64,000 nt of DNA. Source: Kordiimonas aquimaris (GTDB lineage: Bacteria > Pseudomonadota > Alphaproteobacteria > Sphingomonadales > Kordiimonadaceae). Made by a program: the position numbers and the translations under genes. The notes beneath the pieces are model-generated. The model did no database searches. It had not been told where the DNA came from and worked only from the letters and a program-made list of their open reading frames with translations. Below are positions 24,418-29,891 of this stretch, piece after piece (position 1 is the stretch's first letter; every line of letters begins with the position of its first letter). The stretch spans positions 751,501 to 815,500 of the forward strand of contig NZ_JAOBPO010000001.1 in assembly GCF_025574485.1 (NCBI RefSeq), read 5' to 3'.

Positions 24418-25785
24418 TTAGCCAGTAACCGTATTGTAGATAATAGACACGAACACGGCACCAATTGCGACCGGGCAAATAAAGCGTACAAGGAAGTACC
24501 AGATACGGAATGTACCATCTTCCATAGCCAGCTCTTCCATCATGTTTTTGCGGCTAACAAACCAGCCAACAAATATAGCAGAGAACATGCCGCCAATTGG
24601 CATCATGATATTGTTGGTCAGGAAGTCTTTCGCATCCAGAATGCTACGACCAAAAATACTGATATCTGCAACAGGATTATCACCCTGGCTCAGGCCTGAT
24701 AGAATGCCCATAGTAAAGATAAAACCGCCAATCATTAAAGCGACTTTGCGTCTGTTAGCGCCTGTTTTTTCAGTAATATAGGATACTGAAGGCTCAAGTA
24801 GTGAGATTGAGCTTGTGATGGCAGCAACAACCAACAGGAAGAAGAAGGCACCGCCAATAAACGCGCCGCCGCTCATTTGTCCGAATGCGATAGGTAGTGT
24901 TGCAAAGATAAGCCCTGGGCCTTGGCCAGGAACAAGGCCGTATGCAAATACGATAGGAAAGATCATCATACCAGCCATGATAGCTACACCTGTATCTGCA
25001 CTTGCGATAATTACTGCAGATTTTCCGATGTTTACATCACGTGTCATGTATGCGCCGTATGTCATAATAGAGCCAAGTGCCAACGACAATGAGAAGAATG
25101 ATTGACCGAGCGCTTGTAGCATCACATCAAAAGTCAGTTTTGAGAAATCAGGCTTGAATAGAAAATCTACTGTCGCAGCCAGGTCGCCAGCGATACTTGA
25201 ATAAATAGCAAGCCCAATCAGAAGCGCGAAAAGTGCTGGCATCAGATAGGTTACGGCTTTCTCAAGGCCACCTTCAACACCGCGTGCAACAATGAACATT
25301 GTTAGACCCATAAAGGCTGCATGCCAGCCAATAACAGCATACTCGTTGGTAAGCAGTCCGCCAAAATGAGCACCAGCTGCGGCTGCATCCATACCTGAGA
25401 ATGTGCCTGCGAAGGCATCAAACATATAAGACAGGGTCCATCCACCAATGACAGAGTAGAAGCTAAGAACGATCACGGCGCCCAGGACACCGGACCAACC
25501 GATTAAACTCCATAACGGACTACGGCCTTCTTCTTTTGCAATCTTGGCCATAGAGCCGATTGGTGATTTTTGCCCGCGCCGTCCAAGCGACAACTCGGCG
25601 ACAAGAACAGGCGTACCAATGACGAAGACAAAGAAAAGATATATAAGCACAAATGCGCCGCCACCGCCTTGACCGGCTTCATACGGGAACTTCCATATGT
25701 TCCCAAGACCAACGGCGCTGCCGACGGCTGCCATAATAAATGTCCAGCGCGAAGACCAATGCGCAGTTTGTGAAGTTCCAGCCAT
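24418..25785 (-). CDS. Sodium-dependent transporter, NSS/SNF family (second copy)
   Basis: A 455-residue NSS transporter with the signature AAVGSAVGLGNIWKFPYEAG in segment 1 and GGGGAFVLIYLFF following. It shares the general layout of the protein at 2265-3659 but differs enough to be a separate paralogue. Sodium-driven amino-acid uptake is the family role; the substrate is unknown. GGGGA and GGGA lie just upstream of the ATG. The gene is single, ending at the bidirectional terminator. Confidence 0.92.
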   Translation of the reverse strand: MAGTSQTAHWSSRWTFIMAAVGSAVGLGNIWKFPYEAGQGGGGAFVLIYLFFVFVIGTPVLVAELSLGRRGQKSPIGSMAKIAKEEGRSPLWSLIGWSGVLGAVIVLSFYSVIGGWTLSYMFDAFAGTFSGMDAAAAGAHFGGLLTNEYAVIGWHAAFMGLTMFIVARGVEGGLEKAVTYLMPALFALLIGLAIYSSIAGDLAATVDFLFKPDFSKLTFDVMLQALGQSFFSLSLALGSIMTYGAYMTRDVNIGKSAVIIASADTGVAIMAGMMIFPIVFAYGLVPGQGPGLIFATLPIAFGQMSGGAFIGGAFFFLLVVAAITSSISLLEPSVSYITEKTGANRRKVALMIGGFIFTMGILSGLSQGDNPVADISIFGRSILDAKDFLTNNIMMPIGGMFSAIFVGWFVSRKNMMEELAMEDGTFRIWYFLVRFICPVAIGAVFVSIIYNTVTG

Positions 25786-25888: not shown

Positions 25889-26701
25889 TCAGCGCGATGT
25901 GTCAATGACGGCGCAGTATTCACCTTGGCTTTTTACCGTATTGCATAGGCGGTCCGCATCACTTTTTTCACTAACCCGTACACCTAGGCGGATGGCTGTG
26001 TTGCCATTGACCACAAGCTCCCATTGATCGATCAAGCCTGTTAACGCAGGGAATTTCTTCTCTAAAGTTGCACGGTTACTGGTTGCGCTTTCAATGGAAC
26101 CATAGCTTGTCAGGTGCGCAAACCATTGCCCAAGAGGTGACTGGCTAGCAGGTCGAACAATTGATTGTGATGCGCCGCCTGAGTAACTGAGCGTTGATGC
26201 AATGCTGCCCGTGTTTAATGCAGAGGTTCGCGCGAGCCCATTATGCAAAGGTCGTTCAGGAGCAAGGTTAACATCAAGGGCGGCTAATTGCTGTGAAAGA
26301 GCCGCGAGCCTGCGTGCAGCTTCGTCTGTGGCAAGACCATCCGCCAGAACACGATCAGCACAGCTTGCACGTACAATATCAGTTGATCCTGTTTGCATAA
26401 CAGCAGCATATAGAGAACGTGCACGCATGGCGGCACCTGTCTCTTCCAGGGCCAATGCTGTGTAAAATCTGTCTGACGCAGAAAATAATGGTTCAGCCGT
26501 TAGTGCATCAAGAGCGTCTTGGCCGCGTCCTTCACAAATAGCAGTTTGTAAAGCCGCCGGTAACGGGCGAACAGTGCCCCTCTCAGACGGATCAGAAGAA
26601 CCCATAATGCCTGACATGGTGCCGCATGCGCTGAGAAGCAACAGTGGTAACAGTTTAAAGGCTGACCATTTAATTTTTGTATATTTTGTTGCTGTACCCA
26701 T
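25889..26701 (-). CDS. Lipoprotein with C-terminal SPOR-like domain
   Basis: A 270-residue protein with a lipoprotein signal (LLPLLLLSACG, lipobox LSAC), a central Ala/Arg-rich helical part and a C-terminal region from about residue 190 (SPLGQWFAHLTSYGSIESA... ending EYCAVIDTS) that reads like a SPOR peptidoglycan-binding domain. It begins two bases after the stop of the carbonic-anhydrase-like gene, so the two are almost certainly translationally coupled and may act together in the periplasm. The SPOR assignment is by pattern and should be treated as probable. Confidence 0.75.
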   Translation of the reverse strand: MGTATKYTKIKWSAFKLLPLLLLSACGTMSGIMGSSDPSERGTVRPLPAALQTAICEGRGQDALDALTAEPLFSASDRFYTALALEETGAAMRARSLYAAVMQTGSTDIVRASCADRVLADGLATDEAARRLAALSQQLAALDVNLAPERPLHNGLARTSALNTGSIASTLSYSGGASQSIVRPASQSPLGQWFAHLTSYGSIESATSNRATLEKKFPALTGLIDQWELVVNGNTAIRLGVRVSEKSDADRLCNTVKSQGEYCAVIDTSR

Positions 26702-26703
26702 GA

Positions 26704-27465
26704 TTACTGTCCGCGTGCATCAAGGATAATACGGTTGCCACGTTGCTGCATTGGCCGCGCATTGTCTCCGCCAATAACACCTTTAATTAATAAAATCTGC
26801 TCGGCAGAAAACTGCACTGGTTTTTTCAGAATATACCAGCTCACACCTTCAGTGCACGGCGGTGTGGTTAAAGACCCGGTGTAGCGGTAATAGTCTTTAT
26901 TTGAAGGCATGAGGTCTCTGGCATTAACAAAAACGTCCGCACGCCTGTTACGCTGATCTGGCTCAAGTGGCAAATGCGGCATAAATTCAGTGATGGCTTT
27001 GTTTTCTGCGCCTTCCTCAATAAGACTAACAACAACAGCGCGTTTGCCGTCCGTTGCTGTATGCATAAACTGGATAGACATCGGGAACGTTTTGTTTGCT
27101 ACCGTGTGCTCTGCGGGTGTGTGAAAAACAGCGCCTTCTAAAGCGTAAGATTTTGCACCAACTTGCAAACTGCTGCCGGCATCATATCGCATATGAATGG
27201 ATAATCTGTTGTTGGTCAGATCAATCGGAGTAACGGTGTAATTGGTCTCAAGGCGGCGCATAACCGCAGGTTCAGTGCCTTCAATATTGATAGGCGACTG
27301 GAACTGGCCAGTACGACAAATGGCATTTGCACTGCCGAGCGTGTGCCAAGCGGACGGGCCGTTGTTACCATTATAGCTCCAGTTGGCTTCCTGTGCTTGA
27401 GCGCCAGTATGCAAGGCAAAGCCTATGGTCGTTGCAGAAATAAGACCAATGAATAATTTTCTCAC
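26704..27465 (-). CDS. Alpha-carbonic-anhydrase-like protein, two zinc ligands missing
   Basis: A 253-residue exported protein (signal peptide ending near GAQAQ) with an alpha-carbonic-anhydrase fold: WSYNGNNGPSAWHTL, QSPINIEG and the C-terminal LTTPPCTEGVSWYI are all conserved. However, the zinc site is broken. Where family members read FHFHTPSEH this protein reads AVFHTPAEH, so the first histidine is Val113 and only His115 remains; where others have E-x-H-x-V-H it reads SIQFMH, so the third ligand is Gln132. Catalysis of CO2 hydration is therefore very unlikely. A GTG start at 27465 follows GAGGAGGGG; the ATG at 27504 is rejected. Confidence 0.88.
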   Translation of the reverse strand: MRKLFIGLISATTIGFALHTGAQAQEANWSYNGNNGPSAWHTLGSANAICRTGQFQSPINIEGTEPAVMRRLETNYTVTPIDLTNNRLSIHMRYDAGSSLQVGAKSYALEGAVFHTPAEHTVANKTFPMSIQFMHTATDGKRAVVVSLIEEGAENKAITEFMPHLPLEPDQRNRRADVFVNARDLMPSNKDYYRYTGSLTTPPCTEGVSWYILKKPVQFSAEQILLIKGVIGGDNARPMQQRGNRIILDARGQ

Positions 27466-27535
27466 GCTGCCGCCCCTCCTCAGGCCGGATAGATGGTTAA
27501 CCAATTAACAAGAGGCTACTATGCGCATGCAATTA

Positions 27536-28966
27536 TTAATAGCCCGTTTCTCGCTGCATGTTTTTTCTAAATGTTTCTATAGCGGGCTCAATCAGTTCAT
27601 CCACCATATTTGCAAACCCCATTAAAACCCCGTGCTCAGGTTTTGTCTTGTTAAATGTGTGAGACAGCGAAACAGCGCCTATACCCGCAGTGTATGCAGC
27701 TTCAACCCATATGTCTTCTGTAATACCGGACTTGATCAAGGCAGTGGTTGGTCGCAGCAATAAGTGCAGGCCAGCGTCCGAGGGTTGCAGGTTGAAATAG
27801 GGTGATAGTTTCTGCCTGATACATGCAGCGCACACATTTTGGCGGCGTGCATGCACTTTACGCAGGCGTCTTATATGTTTGCTGAATTCTCCGCTTTCCA
27901 TAAAGGCATTCAGGGCCAATTGTCCTGTGATTGCAGGAAAGCTGTCAGTAGCAGAACGAAAGGCCATGACGCGGTTAACTAAATGTTCTGGTAATACTAA
28001 ATAACCCATGCGTACGGCTGGAAATAGAGATTTCGAGAAAGTGCCGCCGTATATAACACGCTTGCCACCATCGACGCCTTGCAGGCTGTTAAGAGGCCTG
28101 CCCGCATAACGGAATTCACTGTCGTAATCGTCTTCCAGTATGAGGCTATCTGTTTCCCGCGCCCAGTTTAAAAGCGCCAGCCTGCGGTTATGCGGCATAG
28201 TATAGCCAAGCGGATATTGCTGAGAAGGGCTGGTAACCAGCAAGCCAGCGCTTTTTTGCGGAACGCATGCCCCGTCAGCGTCAACGGCAGTATATGATAT
28301 GGGTATACCTGTCGCCCTTGCTGCCGCGAGCATGCCAATAAACCCGGGCTCTTCCAAAATAATGTTGGCATTTTCTTGTAATACTGAAGATGCGAGCAGG
28401 AAAAGCCCTTGCTGCAAGCCAGAGACAATCATCACTTGCTTGTACGAGCATACAACGGTGCGCGAGGCTTTCAGGTAATCAGCAATATTTTGCCTGAGCG
28501 GCGCATAACCAAGCGGGTCGCGGTGGTACATCAAGTCTGCATTCAAACCTCGCACGGCTTTGCTGGCGGCACGGGCCCAAATCTGGTTTGGGAATTGATC
28601 CAGCGCAGGCATGCCGGACAGTTGCATTGGCTCAGTTTTGGCGGTAACCACCCTTGGTGGTTTTGTATTTTCGCCTTGGCTTGATGTCATGAAGTCGTCG
28701 GGCCGCATGGCGCTAACAAAGGTGCCTGCGCCGCGTTTGGTCTCAAGGTAACCTTCCGCAATCAACTGATCGTAAGCCTCGATAACTGTATTGCGTGCAA
28801 TACCCAGGCGTTTCGCAAGTGCACGGGTTGCTGGAAGACGTGCTCCTGTTTTCAGTATGCCGTCTAAAATACCGCCGCGAATGTCTGCATGTAATTTTTT
28901 CTGTAATGAAATGCCTTTTGAATTCTCTAGGGCATGACTCCAAAGCGTGGCTATATCTTGTTCCAA
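27536..28966 (-). CDS. MocR/PdxR-type GntR regulator with aminotransferase domain
   Basis: A 476-residue regulator: an N-terminal GntR winged helix (LPATRALAKRLGIARNTVIEAY, residues about 44-66) and a large aminotransferase-like domain with the PLP lysine in GGTFSKSLFPAVRMGY. MocR proteins sense PLP or amino compounds and often control a divergent gene. Here that is the 48-aa ORF and the flavin-type oxidase, and a 23-bp tandem repeat lies at the start of the gene. The start is a TTG at 28966, abutting the repeat, so autoregulation is likely. Pyridoxal-related control fits the PNPOx-like neighbour but is inferred. Confidence 0.9.
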   Translation of the reverse strand: MEQDIATLWSHALENSKGISLQKKLHADIRGGILDGILKTGARLPATRALAKRLGIARNTVIEAYDQLIAEGYLETKRGAGTFVSAMRPDDFMTSSQGENTKPPRVVTAKTEPMQLSGMPALDQFPNQIWARAASKAVRGLNADLMYHRDPLGYAPLRQNIADYLKASRTVVCSYKQVMIVSGLQQGLFLLASSVLQENANIILEEPGFIGMLAAARATGIPISYTAVDADGACVPQKSAGLLVTSPSQQYPLGYTMPHNRRLALLNWARETDSLILEDDYDSEFRYAGRPLNSLQGVDGGKRVIYGGTFSKSLFPAVRMGYLVLPEHLVNRVMAFRSATDSFPAITGQLALNAFMESGEFSKHIRRLRKVHARRQNVCAACIRQKLSPYFNLQPSDAGLHLLLRPTTALIKSGITEDIWVEAAYTAGIGAVSLSHTFNKTKPEHGVLMGFANMVDELIEPAIETFRKNMQRETGY

Positions 28967-29022
28967 AATTGGACCTATAAAAAATATTAAATTGGACCTA
29001 TAAAAAATATTAAATTGGACCT
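28966..29022. repeat. 23-bp tandem repeat, 2.5 copies, candidate MocR operator
   Basis: Copy 1 is 28966-28988, copy 2 is 28989-29011 (identical), and 29012-29022 begins a third. Each copy starts AAATTGGACCTATA. It sits between the divergent MocR gene and the 48-aa ORF / oxidase pair. Direct repeats are the usual MocR operator form, and the TTGGACCTA core recalls sites described for PdxR-type regulators. Confidence 0.85.
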
Positions 29023-29085: not shown

Positions 29086-29232
29086 ATGAATACCAAAATC
29101 ATAACCTATTGGGGCGCGTTACACTCTTGTAGCGATAATCGAAGCAGAGCTGTTCGAAAGCACATTAGGTTTTCAAAGGCATTCTGGAAAAAATTGGCAC
29201 AATTGTACCGTGAGGTCTGGAGTAAGAAATGA
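29086..29232 (+). CDS. Novel 48-aa ORF coupled to the flavin-type oxidase gene
   Basis: ATG at 29086 follows GGTGA at 29076-29080 with a 5-base gap. The frame ends at TGA 29230-29232 and overlaps the next start as ATGA, the classic coupled arrangement. The peptide begins MNTKIITYWGALHSCSDNRS and its second half is a basic, aromatic helix (RKHIRFSKAFWKKLAQLYRE). No family is recognised; size and charge recall small DUF1127-like proteins but the key pattern is absent. It is downstream of the MocR repeat and so is probably regulated with the oxidase. Alternatively it is a leader that controls translation of the oxidase. Confidence 0.5.
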   Translation: MNTKIITYWGALHSCSDNRSRAVRKHIRFSKAFWKKLAQLYREVWSKK

Positions 29233-29891
29233 CAAATGATGTATTCGGCGTAACACTGCGTAACAAGGTTAAGCGCGGTAACAAGCGTGCCGCTTACGAC
29301 AAGGAAACGGTTTATGGTATTCTGGACAGCCATTTCCTGTGTCATGTGGCATTTGAAGTAGATGGTGCACCGCATATCATCCCTACCAGTCACTGGCGGG
29401 ACGGCAATAAGTTATATTGGCATGGTTCTTCCAAAAGTTTCATGATCAAACACCTATCCGCGGGTAATGCTGCAGCTGTTTCTGTAACATTACTGGATGG
29501 TCTTGTTCTTGCGCGCTCAGCTTTCAACACAAGCGTAAATTATCGTTCTGTCATATGTTATGGCACACCTGAACTGGTAACTGACGATGCTGTTTTTGAT
29601 CAGCAAATGGAGCGCTTCTTCGAAATGCTGGCGCCGGGGCGGTGGCCACAACTGCGCACCATGACAGCAACCGAACGCAAAGCTACAGGCTTGCTTGAAA
29701 TGGAAATCGATACAGCCGCTGCGAAAGTGCGGGCAGCCCCTCCAGGAGACGGTGATGAAGCTGACCATCCTGTTTGGGCAGGTGTTGTACCTCTTGAGAC
29801 GGTCAGTAGAGCAAAGGTGGATGCGCCTGAGGGCGCGCAGGCGCCTTTAAATCATGACGTTTTCACAGCCTATAATTGGAAAACTATTTAA
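29229..29891 (+). CDS. Pyridoxamine 5'-phosphate oxidase-related FMN-binding protein
   Basis: A 220-residue protein of the split-barrel flavin family. The N-terminal part carries the family pattern (GILDSHFLCHVAFEVDGAPHIIPTS, then LYWHGSSKSFMIKHL), close to the NimA / PNPOx-like group. Members reduce or bind FMN, haem or F420; the actual substrate is not known. It overlaps the 48-aa ORF by 4 bp and faces the MocR regulator across the tandem repeat, so PLP-related or detoxifying chemistry under MocR control is a reasonable inference. Confidence 0.87.
   Translation: MTNDVFGVTLRNKVKRGNKRAAYDKETVYGILDSHFLCHVAFEVDGAPHIIPTSHWRDGNKLYWHGSSKSFMIKHLSAGNAAAVSVTLLDGLVLARSAFNTSVNYRSVICYGTPELVTDDAVFDQQMERFFEMLAPGRWPQLRTMTATERKATGLLEMEIDTAAAKVRAAPPGDGDEADHPVWAGVVPLETVSRAKVDAPEGAQAPLNHDVFTAYNWKTI

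Follow-up and report, generated by a model that had tools for sequence, protein, structure and literature searches.

Catalytic alpha-carbonic anhydrases (alpha-CAs, EC 4.2.1.1) are recognised by their three zinc histidines. The carbonic-anhydrase-related proteins (CARPs) VIII, X and XI are described as having the alpha-CA fold without one or more of these histidines and as being acatalytic (PMC2873310). According to another report, lactate transport by MCT1 is stimulated by CARPs in a non-catalytic way, and His64 is conserved in all three of them (PMC6609565). SPOR domains, according to a third source, recognise and bind peptide-stripped (denuded) glycan strands, which are enriched at the septum (PMC6895207). 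The question of how an enzyme turns into a binding protein has so far been studied mainly with a few eukaryotic CARPs. Here we describe a bacterial alpha-CA-like gene with an altered zinc site and its lipoprotein neighbour. Both lie in the window, the whole stretch of 64,000 nucleotides that was analysed (Table 1).

Table 1. Features of the locus, with positions in the window
Feature	Position	Strand	Basis
Exported alpha-carbonic-anhydrase-like (CA-like) protein, 253 aa, GTG start	26704..27465	-	PF00194, PDB match, fold match
Shine-Dalgarno sequence AGGAGG, 9 nt 5' of the GTG of the CA-like gene	27475..27480	-	read from sequence
V113 codon GTT, first zinc His position (H94)	27127..27129	-	alignment and codon
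H115 codon CAC, second zinc His (H96), retained	27121..27123	-	alignment and codon
Q132 codon CAG, third zinc His position (H119)	27070..27072	-	alignment and codon
Lipoprotein partner of 270 aa, its start lying 2 nt 3' of the CA-like stop; lipobox LSAC, Gly at +2	25889..26701	-	
SPOR-like domain at the C-terminus of the lipoprotein, residues 191-267 (approximate)	25901..26131	-	Foldseek, and Pfam in orthologues
Sodium:neurotransmitter symporter family (SNF) transporter, third gene of the block, link uncertain	24418..25785	-	PF00209

Zinc site of the carbonic-anhydrase-like protein

The reading frame of the CA-like gene has no internal stop in the window sequence, and the encoded protein begins with a signal peptide that ends near AQA. 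The protein matches the Pfam family PF00194 (Carb_anhydrase) over its length with 108.1 bits at a cut-off of 27; no NCBIfam family was matched. Among the PDB sequences, bacterial alpha-CAs come closest to it (6eki, E 1e-47). The AlphaFold2 model, made with 6 sequences, is of middling confidence (mean pLDDT 64.2, pTM 0.68). It retrieves alpha-CAs from the PDB, with 6im0 as the best match (E 3.1e-20, prob 1.00). No other PF00194 gene was found in the host genome.

The original prediction had placed Val113, His115 and Gln132 at the zinc positions. The alignment with intact alpha-CAs and the codons confirmed this assignment, and the three zinc histidines of a catalytic alpha-CA are therefore not all present in the window protein. 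In the numbering of hCA II, which we take from our own motif-based mapping, the ligands are H94, H96 and H119. The same alignment shows that the Thr199–Glu106 gate (T200 and E119 in the window protein) and W209 (W210) are kept, and that H64, Q92, E117 and V121 are replaced too. Judged from its sequence, the product is an alpha-CA fold with a degenerate zinc site.

Orthologues, repeated loss of zinc ligands and selection

A homologue was found in 28 of the 29 genomes of the host's taxonomic family, and 27 of the 29 carry a syntenic CA-like gene at one fixed locus. The homologue of G026 is a different, intact alpha-CA, which lacks the local gene order and groups in the tree with a gene of another family. 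The ligands of the 27 orthologues are HHH in five, VRQ in five, TRQ in three, and DHQ, KHQ, HHQ and NHE in two each; VHQ (the window protein), THQ, SHQ, ERQ, TKQ and NHH were seen once each. Zinc histidines are missing from 22 of the 27: ten have none left, nine have one and three have two. Orthologues with the three normal histidines, which the original prediction had regarded as the sign of a local error, do exist (5/27), but the degenerate site in the other 22 speaks against such an error. The histidines are replaced by different residues in different lineages, so a local error is not indicated. A sequencing or annotation error in the host genome would have nothing in its favour beyond the unusual residues; it is refuted by the same or other ligand losses in the orthologues, and we put its probability at next to nil.

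E106 and W209 are retained in 27/27 orthologues and T199 in 24/27, and His64 in 7/27. In the CO2 pocket, V121 is kept in 5/27 and V143 in 8/27, and Q92 is kept in 2/27. Most HHH orthologues carry changes at other sites (Asp at position 121 in two of them, Ala at position 117 in one), and all 13 catalytic and pocket residues checked are kept in a single orthologue, that of G022. Since five orthologues are HHH and G022 has the whole checked set, catalysis could still be of importance to some species of the family. It could also be supposed that the degenerate pocket binds zinc or another metal through its remaining His together with Gln, Asp, Glu or Asn, with a weak or changed activity. The constancy of E106, W209 and, nearly, T199 would suit this, as would the orthologues that are still HHH. 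In the 21 losses of the third ligand counted from the orthologue table, the replacement is only Gln (19) or Glu (2), both able in principle to touch a metal. However, ten orthologues have no His ligand at all, a normal site cannot be built with Val, Lys, Arg or Thr, and the CO2 pocket and Q92 have decayed too. Residual or altered metal chemistry thus appears quite improbable.

To count the losses, we used a gene tree of 75 alpha-CAs built with the ligand columns omitted and with no eukaryotic rows; the truncated G243 was excluded from both the ligand count and the tree. The 27 syntenic genes form one clade with a support of 100/99. With losses treated as irreversible, the best tree gives 7 zinc-site losses within the host's family and 14 across all rows, and over 1000 bootstraps, again with no regain allowed, the number in the family varies from 4 to 10. 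Parsimony with regain allowed gives 12 changes over the whole tree. The rpoB tree is valid for 26 of its 28 rows (in the other two, G019 and G033, a wrong ORF was taken and the branch length is 10), and ten of the 27 genomes are absent from it. In this tree the HHH genomes (G011 with G012, and G008 with three degenerate lineages) stand apart from a clade of seven that is degenerate throughout; therefore, by our own reading, there were at least three zinc-site losses. In the rpoB tree, unlike in the gene tree, G013 and G017 group with G008.

No internal stop was found in any of the 28 matches of the host's family. The dN/dS set comprised 18 pairs, of which 6 were saturated and gave no ratio. 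Eight pairs of degenerate CA-like genes have a dN/dS of 0.050–0.157, two of them at a dS near 2.9, which is close to saturation; four HHH pairs have 0.141–0.279, and the degenerate pairs are thus not higher. A pseudogene was rejected on these two grounds, the lack of stops and purifying selection by dN/dS. We also compared the conservation of the 27 syntenic orthologues with that of 39 HHH alpha-CAs from elsewhere. Twelve positions conserved in the 39 are relaxed in the 27, namely 87, 91, 111, 113, 115, 118, 132, 134, 144, 201, 212 and 235, presumably equal to G63, N67, Q92, H94, H96, S105, H119, V121, V143, T200, V211 and N244 of hCA II. By this mapping, they would belong mostly to the active-site cavity or its zinc and second shell. 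Conversely, the 27 show new conservation at twenty positions (64, 72, 78, 103, 105, 157, 160, 168, 171, 181–184, 194, 211, 214, 224 and 247–249). The two sets together indicate that the fold was kept, the cavity was released and another constraint has arisen.

Beta-type carbonic anhydrases (PF00484) are present in 26 of the 29 family genomes, with two in the host genome. They are absent in G008 (HHH), G003 (VRQ) and G025 (NHH), two of which carry a degenerate alpha gene. The alpha gene might then be under relaxed selection after a takeover by the beta-type enzymes and heading for loss. The repeated loss of the active site and the wide occurrence of beta-type enzymes would agree with such a decay. 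But the gene persists at one locus in 27/29 genomes without stops, the degenerate pairs do not exceed the HHH pairs in dN/dS, and twenty positions are newly constrained, which makes a decaying gene highly improbable.

Few genomes of the class carry an alpha-CA (32 of 385). Among 35 other alphaproteobacterial alpha-CAs assessed, nine have degenerate ligands: THQ, QRQ, EHQ, DRQ (twice), DHH, HHQ, HRQ and EHH, the last (G206) being a long, doubtful branch. In L101, L102, L103, L104 and L105 (THQ, QRQ, EHQ, DRQ and DRQ), which come from other alphaproteobacterial families, H119 is changed to Gln in 5/5. Within one genus, the alpha-CA copies of the same genome are unlike in their ligands, with HHQ and HHH in G219 and DHH and HRQ in G322 (L106, L113, L115 and L118). 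This may be another zinc-site loss in progress; the G322 genome has 10% contamination. The SPOR model described below found no SPOR neighbour beside the nine degenerate alphaproteobacterial alpha-CAs outside the host's family, and a SPOR partner is therefore not required for the loss of a zinc site. Outside Alphaproteobacteria, in a sample of the phylum (Pseudomonadota), 3 of 54 complete genes are degenerate (NHH, QHQ and RHQ). The 54-gene set leaves aside the fragments L249 and L252, the duplicate G767, rows that had been counted already, and those five of the 61 matches that are alphaproteobacterial. Because degenerate alpha-CAs occur sporadically elsewhere, zinc-site loss is recurrent, but it is fixed at one locus nowhere else examined.

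The SPOR lipoprotein and the neighbouring genes

The lipoprotein gene stands directly 3' of the CA-like gene in 27/27 syntenic loci, and the distance from the CA-like stop to the lipoprotein start varies with the start chosen, between about -17 and +15 nt. The full-length lipoprotein profile matched 27 of the 147 genomes of the order with E 1.5e-78 or better, and these coincide exactly with the genomes that carry the syntenic CA-like gene. In the order, the match that follows them (E 1.7e-9) covers the C-terminal half only. In the 385 class genomes, a sample without other members of the family, the full-length lipoprotein was found in the host genome only. G024 and G026, which have no syntenic CA gene, lack it too. 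The pairing with a lipoprotein claimed from the window sequence thus turned out to be stronger than had been stated. By a simple pattern, 25/27 lipoprotein orthologues have a lipobox and 2/27 do not; none has Asp at +2. In G015 the lipoprotein gene (L010; G015:C19:36022-36815) has a frameshift close to its end, from where it continues in a different frame; this is either a sequencing error or real. It was excluded from the SPOR model and from the lipoprotein alignment.

The middle of the lipoprotein is helical and belongs to no named family, and a profile search of the lipoprotein against the PDB sequences gave no match. Apart from the SPOR segment, whose pLDDT blocks are about 59–75, its structure is poorly predicted (mean pLDDT 46.4). 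In this C-terminal segment, the predicted order of strands and helices is that of a SPOR domain. When the segment was searched with Foldseek, the top four PDB matches were the SPOR domains of RlpA, CwlC, RlpA and DamX, at prob 0.94–1.00 and E 0.022–0.038, which convince by their consistency and not by E-value. The window lipoprotein itself stays below the Pfam gathering score for SPOR (14.4 bits vs 21), and 19 of 26 lipoprotein orthologues match Pfam SPOR at E<=0.1, the best at 6e-5. The SPOR-like end proposed in the original prediction is therefore backed by the PDB fold matches. His196 is invariant in the SPOR domain of the lipoprotein and is also common in other alphaproteobacterial SPOR matches.

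The evolutionary distances of the CA-like and lipoprotein genes are correlated with r 0.83–0.89, and the partial r is 0.58–0.88 after removing each of seven neighbour genes. This supports, without proving, a contact between the two proteins; shared ancestry can also explain both the neighbourhood and the rates.

The SNF symporter adjoins the lipoprotein in 25/25 loci with a long enough contig (the contigs of G009 and G010 end too early), even where other neighbours have moved (L045, L047 and L070). The CA-like protein, by itself or jointly with the lipoprotein, might assist this sodium symporter in the manner of CARPs with MCT1. The constant third place of the symporter in the block would be expected in such a case. 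However, the distances of the symporter and CA genes are weakly correlated (r 0.56, partial 0.16). The history of the symporter also looks mixed: its dN between G018 and G006 is 0.019 vs 0.177 for the CA gene, and two SNF-family symporter genes stand in tandem beside the lipoprotein in L071 (G006). Symporter distances that do not track the neighbouring genes hint at exchange or gene conversion. In addition, His64, reported to be constant in the three CARPs, is kept in only a minority of the orthologues, as counted above. We therefore consider a transporter accessory unlikely.

On the other side of the CA-like gene, a MocR regulator (27536-28966) was considered as a part of the system and rejected. 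It is present in only 21 of the 27 loci and faces a divergent pyridoxamine-oxidase-like gene (29229-29891). Between this MocR/PdxR-like regulator and the divergent gene we observed a perfect 23 bp tandem array of 2.5 copies, AAATTGGACCTATAAAAAATATT, at 28966-29022, which looks like an operator of the regulator.

In the distant alphaproteobacterial family f44, an intact alpha-CA is followed by a lipoprotein in 4/4 sampled genomes with an alpha-CA (L107, L108, L109 and L112). This lipoprotein has a SPOR-like end and an N-terminal part unrelated to the window partner. An SRRxLL motif resembling a Tat signal occurs close to the start of three of the f44 CAs. The arrangement may be an independent partnership; it is one clade among some 30 CA lineages, and chance is also possible.

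A putative acatalytic envelope domain and its relation to known systems

The pseudo-enzyme status of the CA-like protein is well supported by its residues and those of its orthologues. Beyond that, we hold it somewhat likelier than an even chance that this protein is a periplasmic alpha-CA turned into a non-catalytic binding or scaffold domain, which works with the SPOR lipoprotein at the peptidoglycan and outer membrane. The signal peptide would export the CA-like protein, which would adopt the carbonic anhydrase fold, with the customary Cys pair (C50–C204) probably closing it. It would no longer bind zinc or hydrate CO2 and would be retained as a binding or scaffold domain. The lipid anchor would hold the lipoprotein in the outer membrane, and its SPOR domain would touch the peptidoglycan, probably denuded or septal glycan. 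Because SPOR domains recognise denuded septal glycan, the pair would probably be found at the interface of the peptidoglycan and the outer membrane. There the CA-like domain, as the partner of the lipoprotein in a putative complex, would present a surface that binds a protein or a ligand. Beta-type carbonic anhydrases would cover the need for CO2 and bicarbonate in most family genomes. We propose that the cavity decayed repeatedly while the rest was conserved because the shared job needs no zinc and the beta-type enzymes cover CO2 and bicarbonate.

A more specific history, that of a bacterial counterpart of CARPs, has in our estimate a little less than an even chance. The fold would have joined a SPOR-lipoprotein complex at the outer membrane and peptidoglycan before the loss of zinc, and the binding role would have let the cavity decay independently in at least four, probably at least seven, lineages. 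The f44 pair would then be a second origin that is still catalytic.

One locus at which the zinc site ranges from intact through partial to complete loss provides a natural series for the transition from an enzyme to a binding protein. The CA–SPOR lipoprotein pair would also tie the alpha-CA fold to the cell wall; in the literature searched, whose coverage left out most subscription journals, we found neither this link nor any description of a CARP in bacteria. Automatic pipelines are expected to label these genes as carbonic anhydrases, although most of the products probably cannot be.

The lipoprotein partner can be compared with SPOR lipoproteins of the RlpA type. RlpA is a lipoprotein, and the lipid anchor and the terminal SPOR fold are common to both. 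Unlike RlpA, the window partner has a helical N-terminal part of no named family in which no lytic domain was seen, and in our own alignment the glycan-binding Gln of RlpA, Q270, corresponds to His196. Another relative by fold is the plant protein dioscorin 5 (PDB 4twl, with ascorbate). It appears among both the sequence and the fold matches as an alpha-CA fold solved with a bound small ligand. Dioscorin 5 has changes in its zinc ligands. In contrast to the CA-like protein, it has no envelope partner.

With bacterial alpha-CAs (PF00194; 6im0, 6eki and 1kop of Neisseria) the window protein shares homology over the whole chain, the fold, export, the Cys pair and E106/T199/W209. It differs from them in the lack of two zinc ligands, of the proton shuttle, of Q92 and E117 and of the CO2 pocket, and its group has a clade-specific constraint and a fixed lipoprotein partner. 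The original prediction had drawn a parallel to eukaryotic CARPs, and this parallel holds: in 22 of the 27 syntenic orthologues the zinc site is gone, while the genes still encode the fold in an open frame and remain under purifying selection. Like CARPs VIII, X and XI, the window protein keeps the alpha-CA fold without at least one zinc His and is conserved nonetheless (27/29 genomes, low dN/dS). Unlike them, it is bacterial, exported and, among solved sequences, closest to bacterial alpha-CAs, its zinc site was lost several times inside one orthologous group, and it has a SPOR lipoprotein as a neighbour. Thus, as far as its sequence tells, the protein is CARP-like by functional class and a bacterial alpha-CA by descent.
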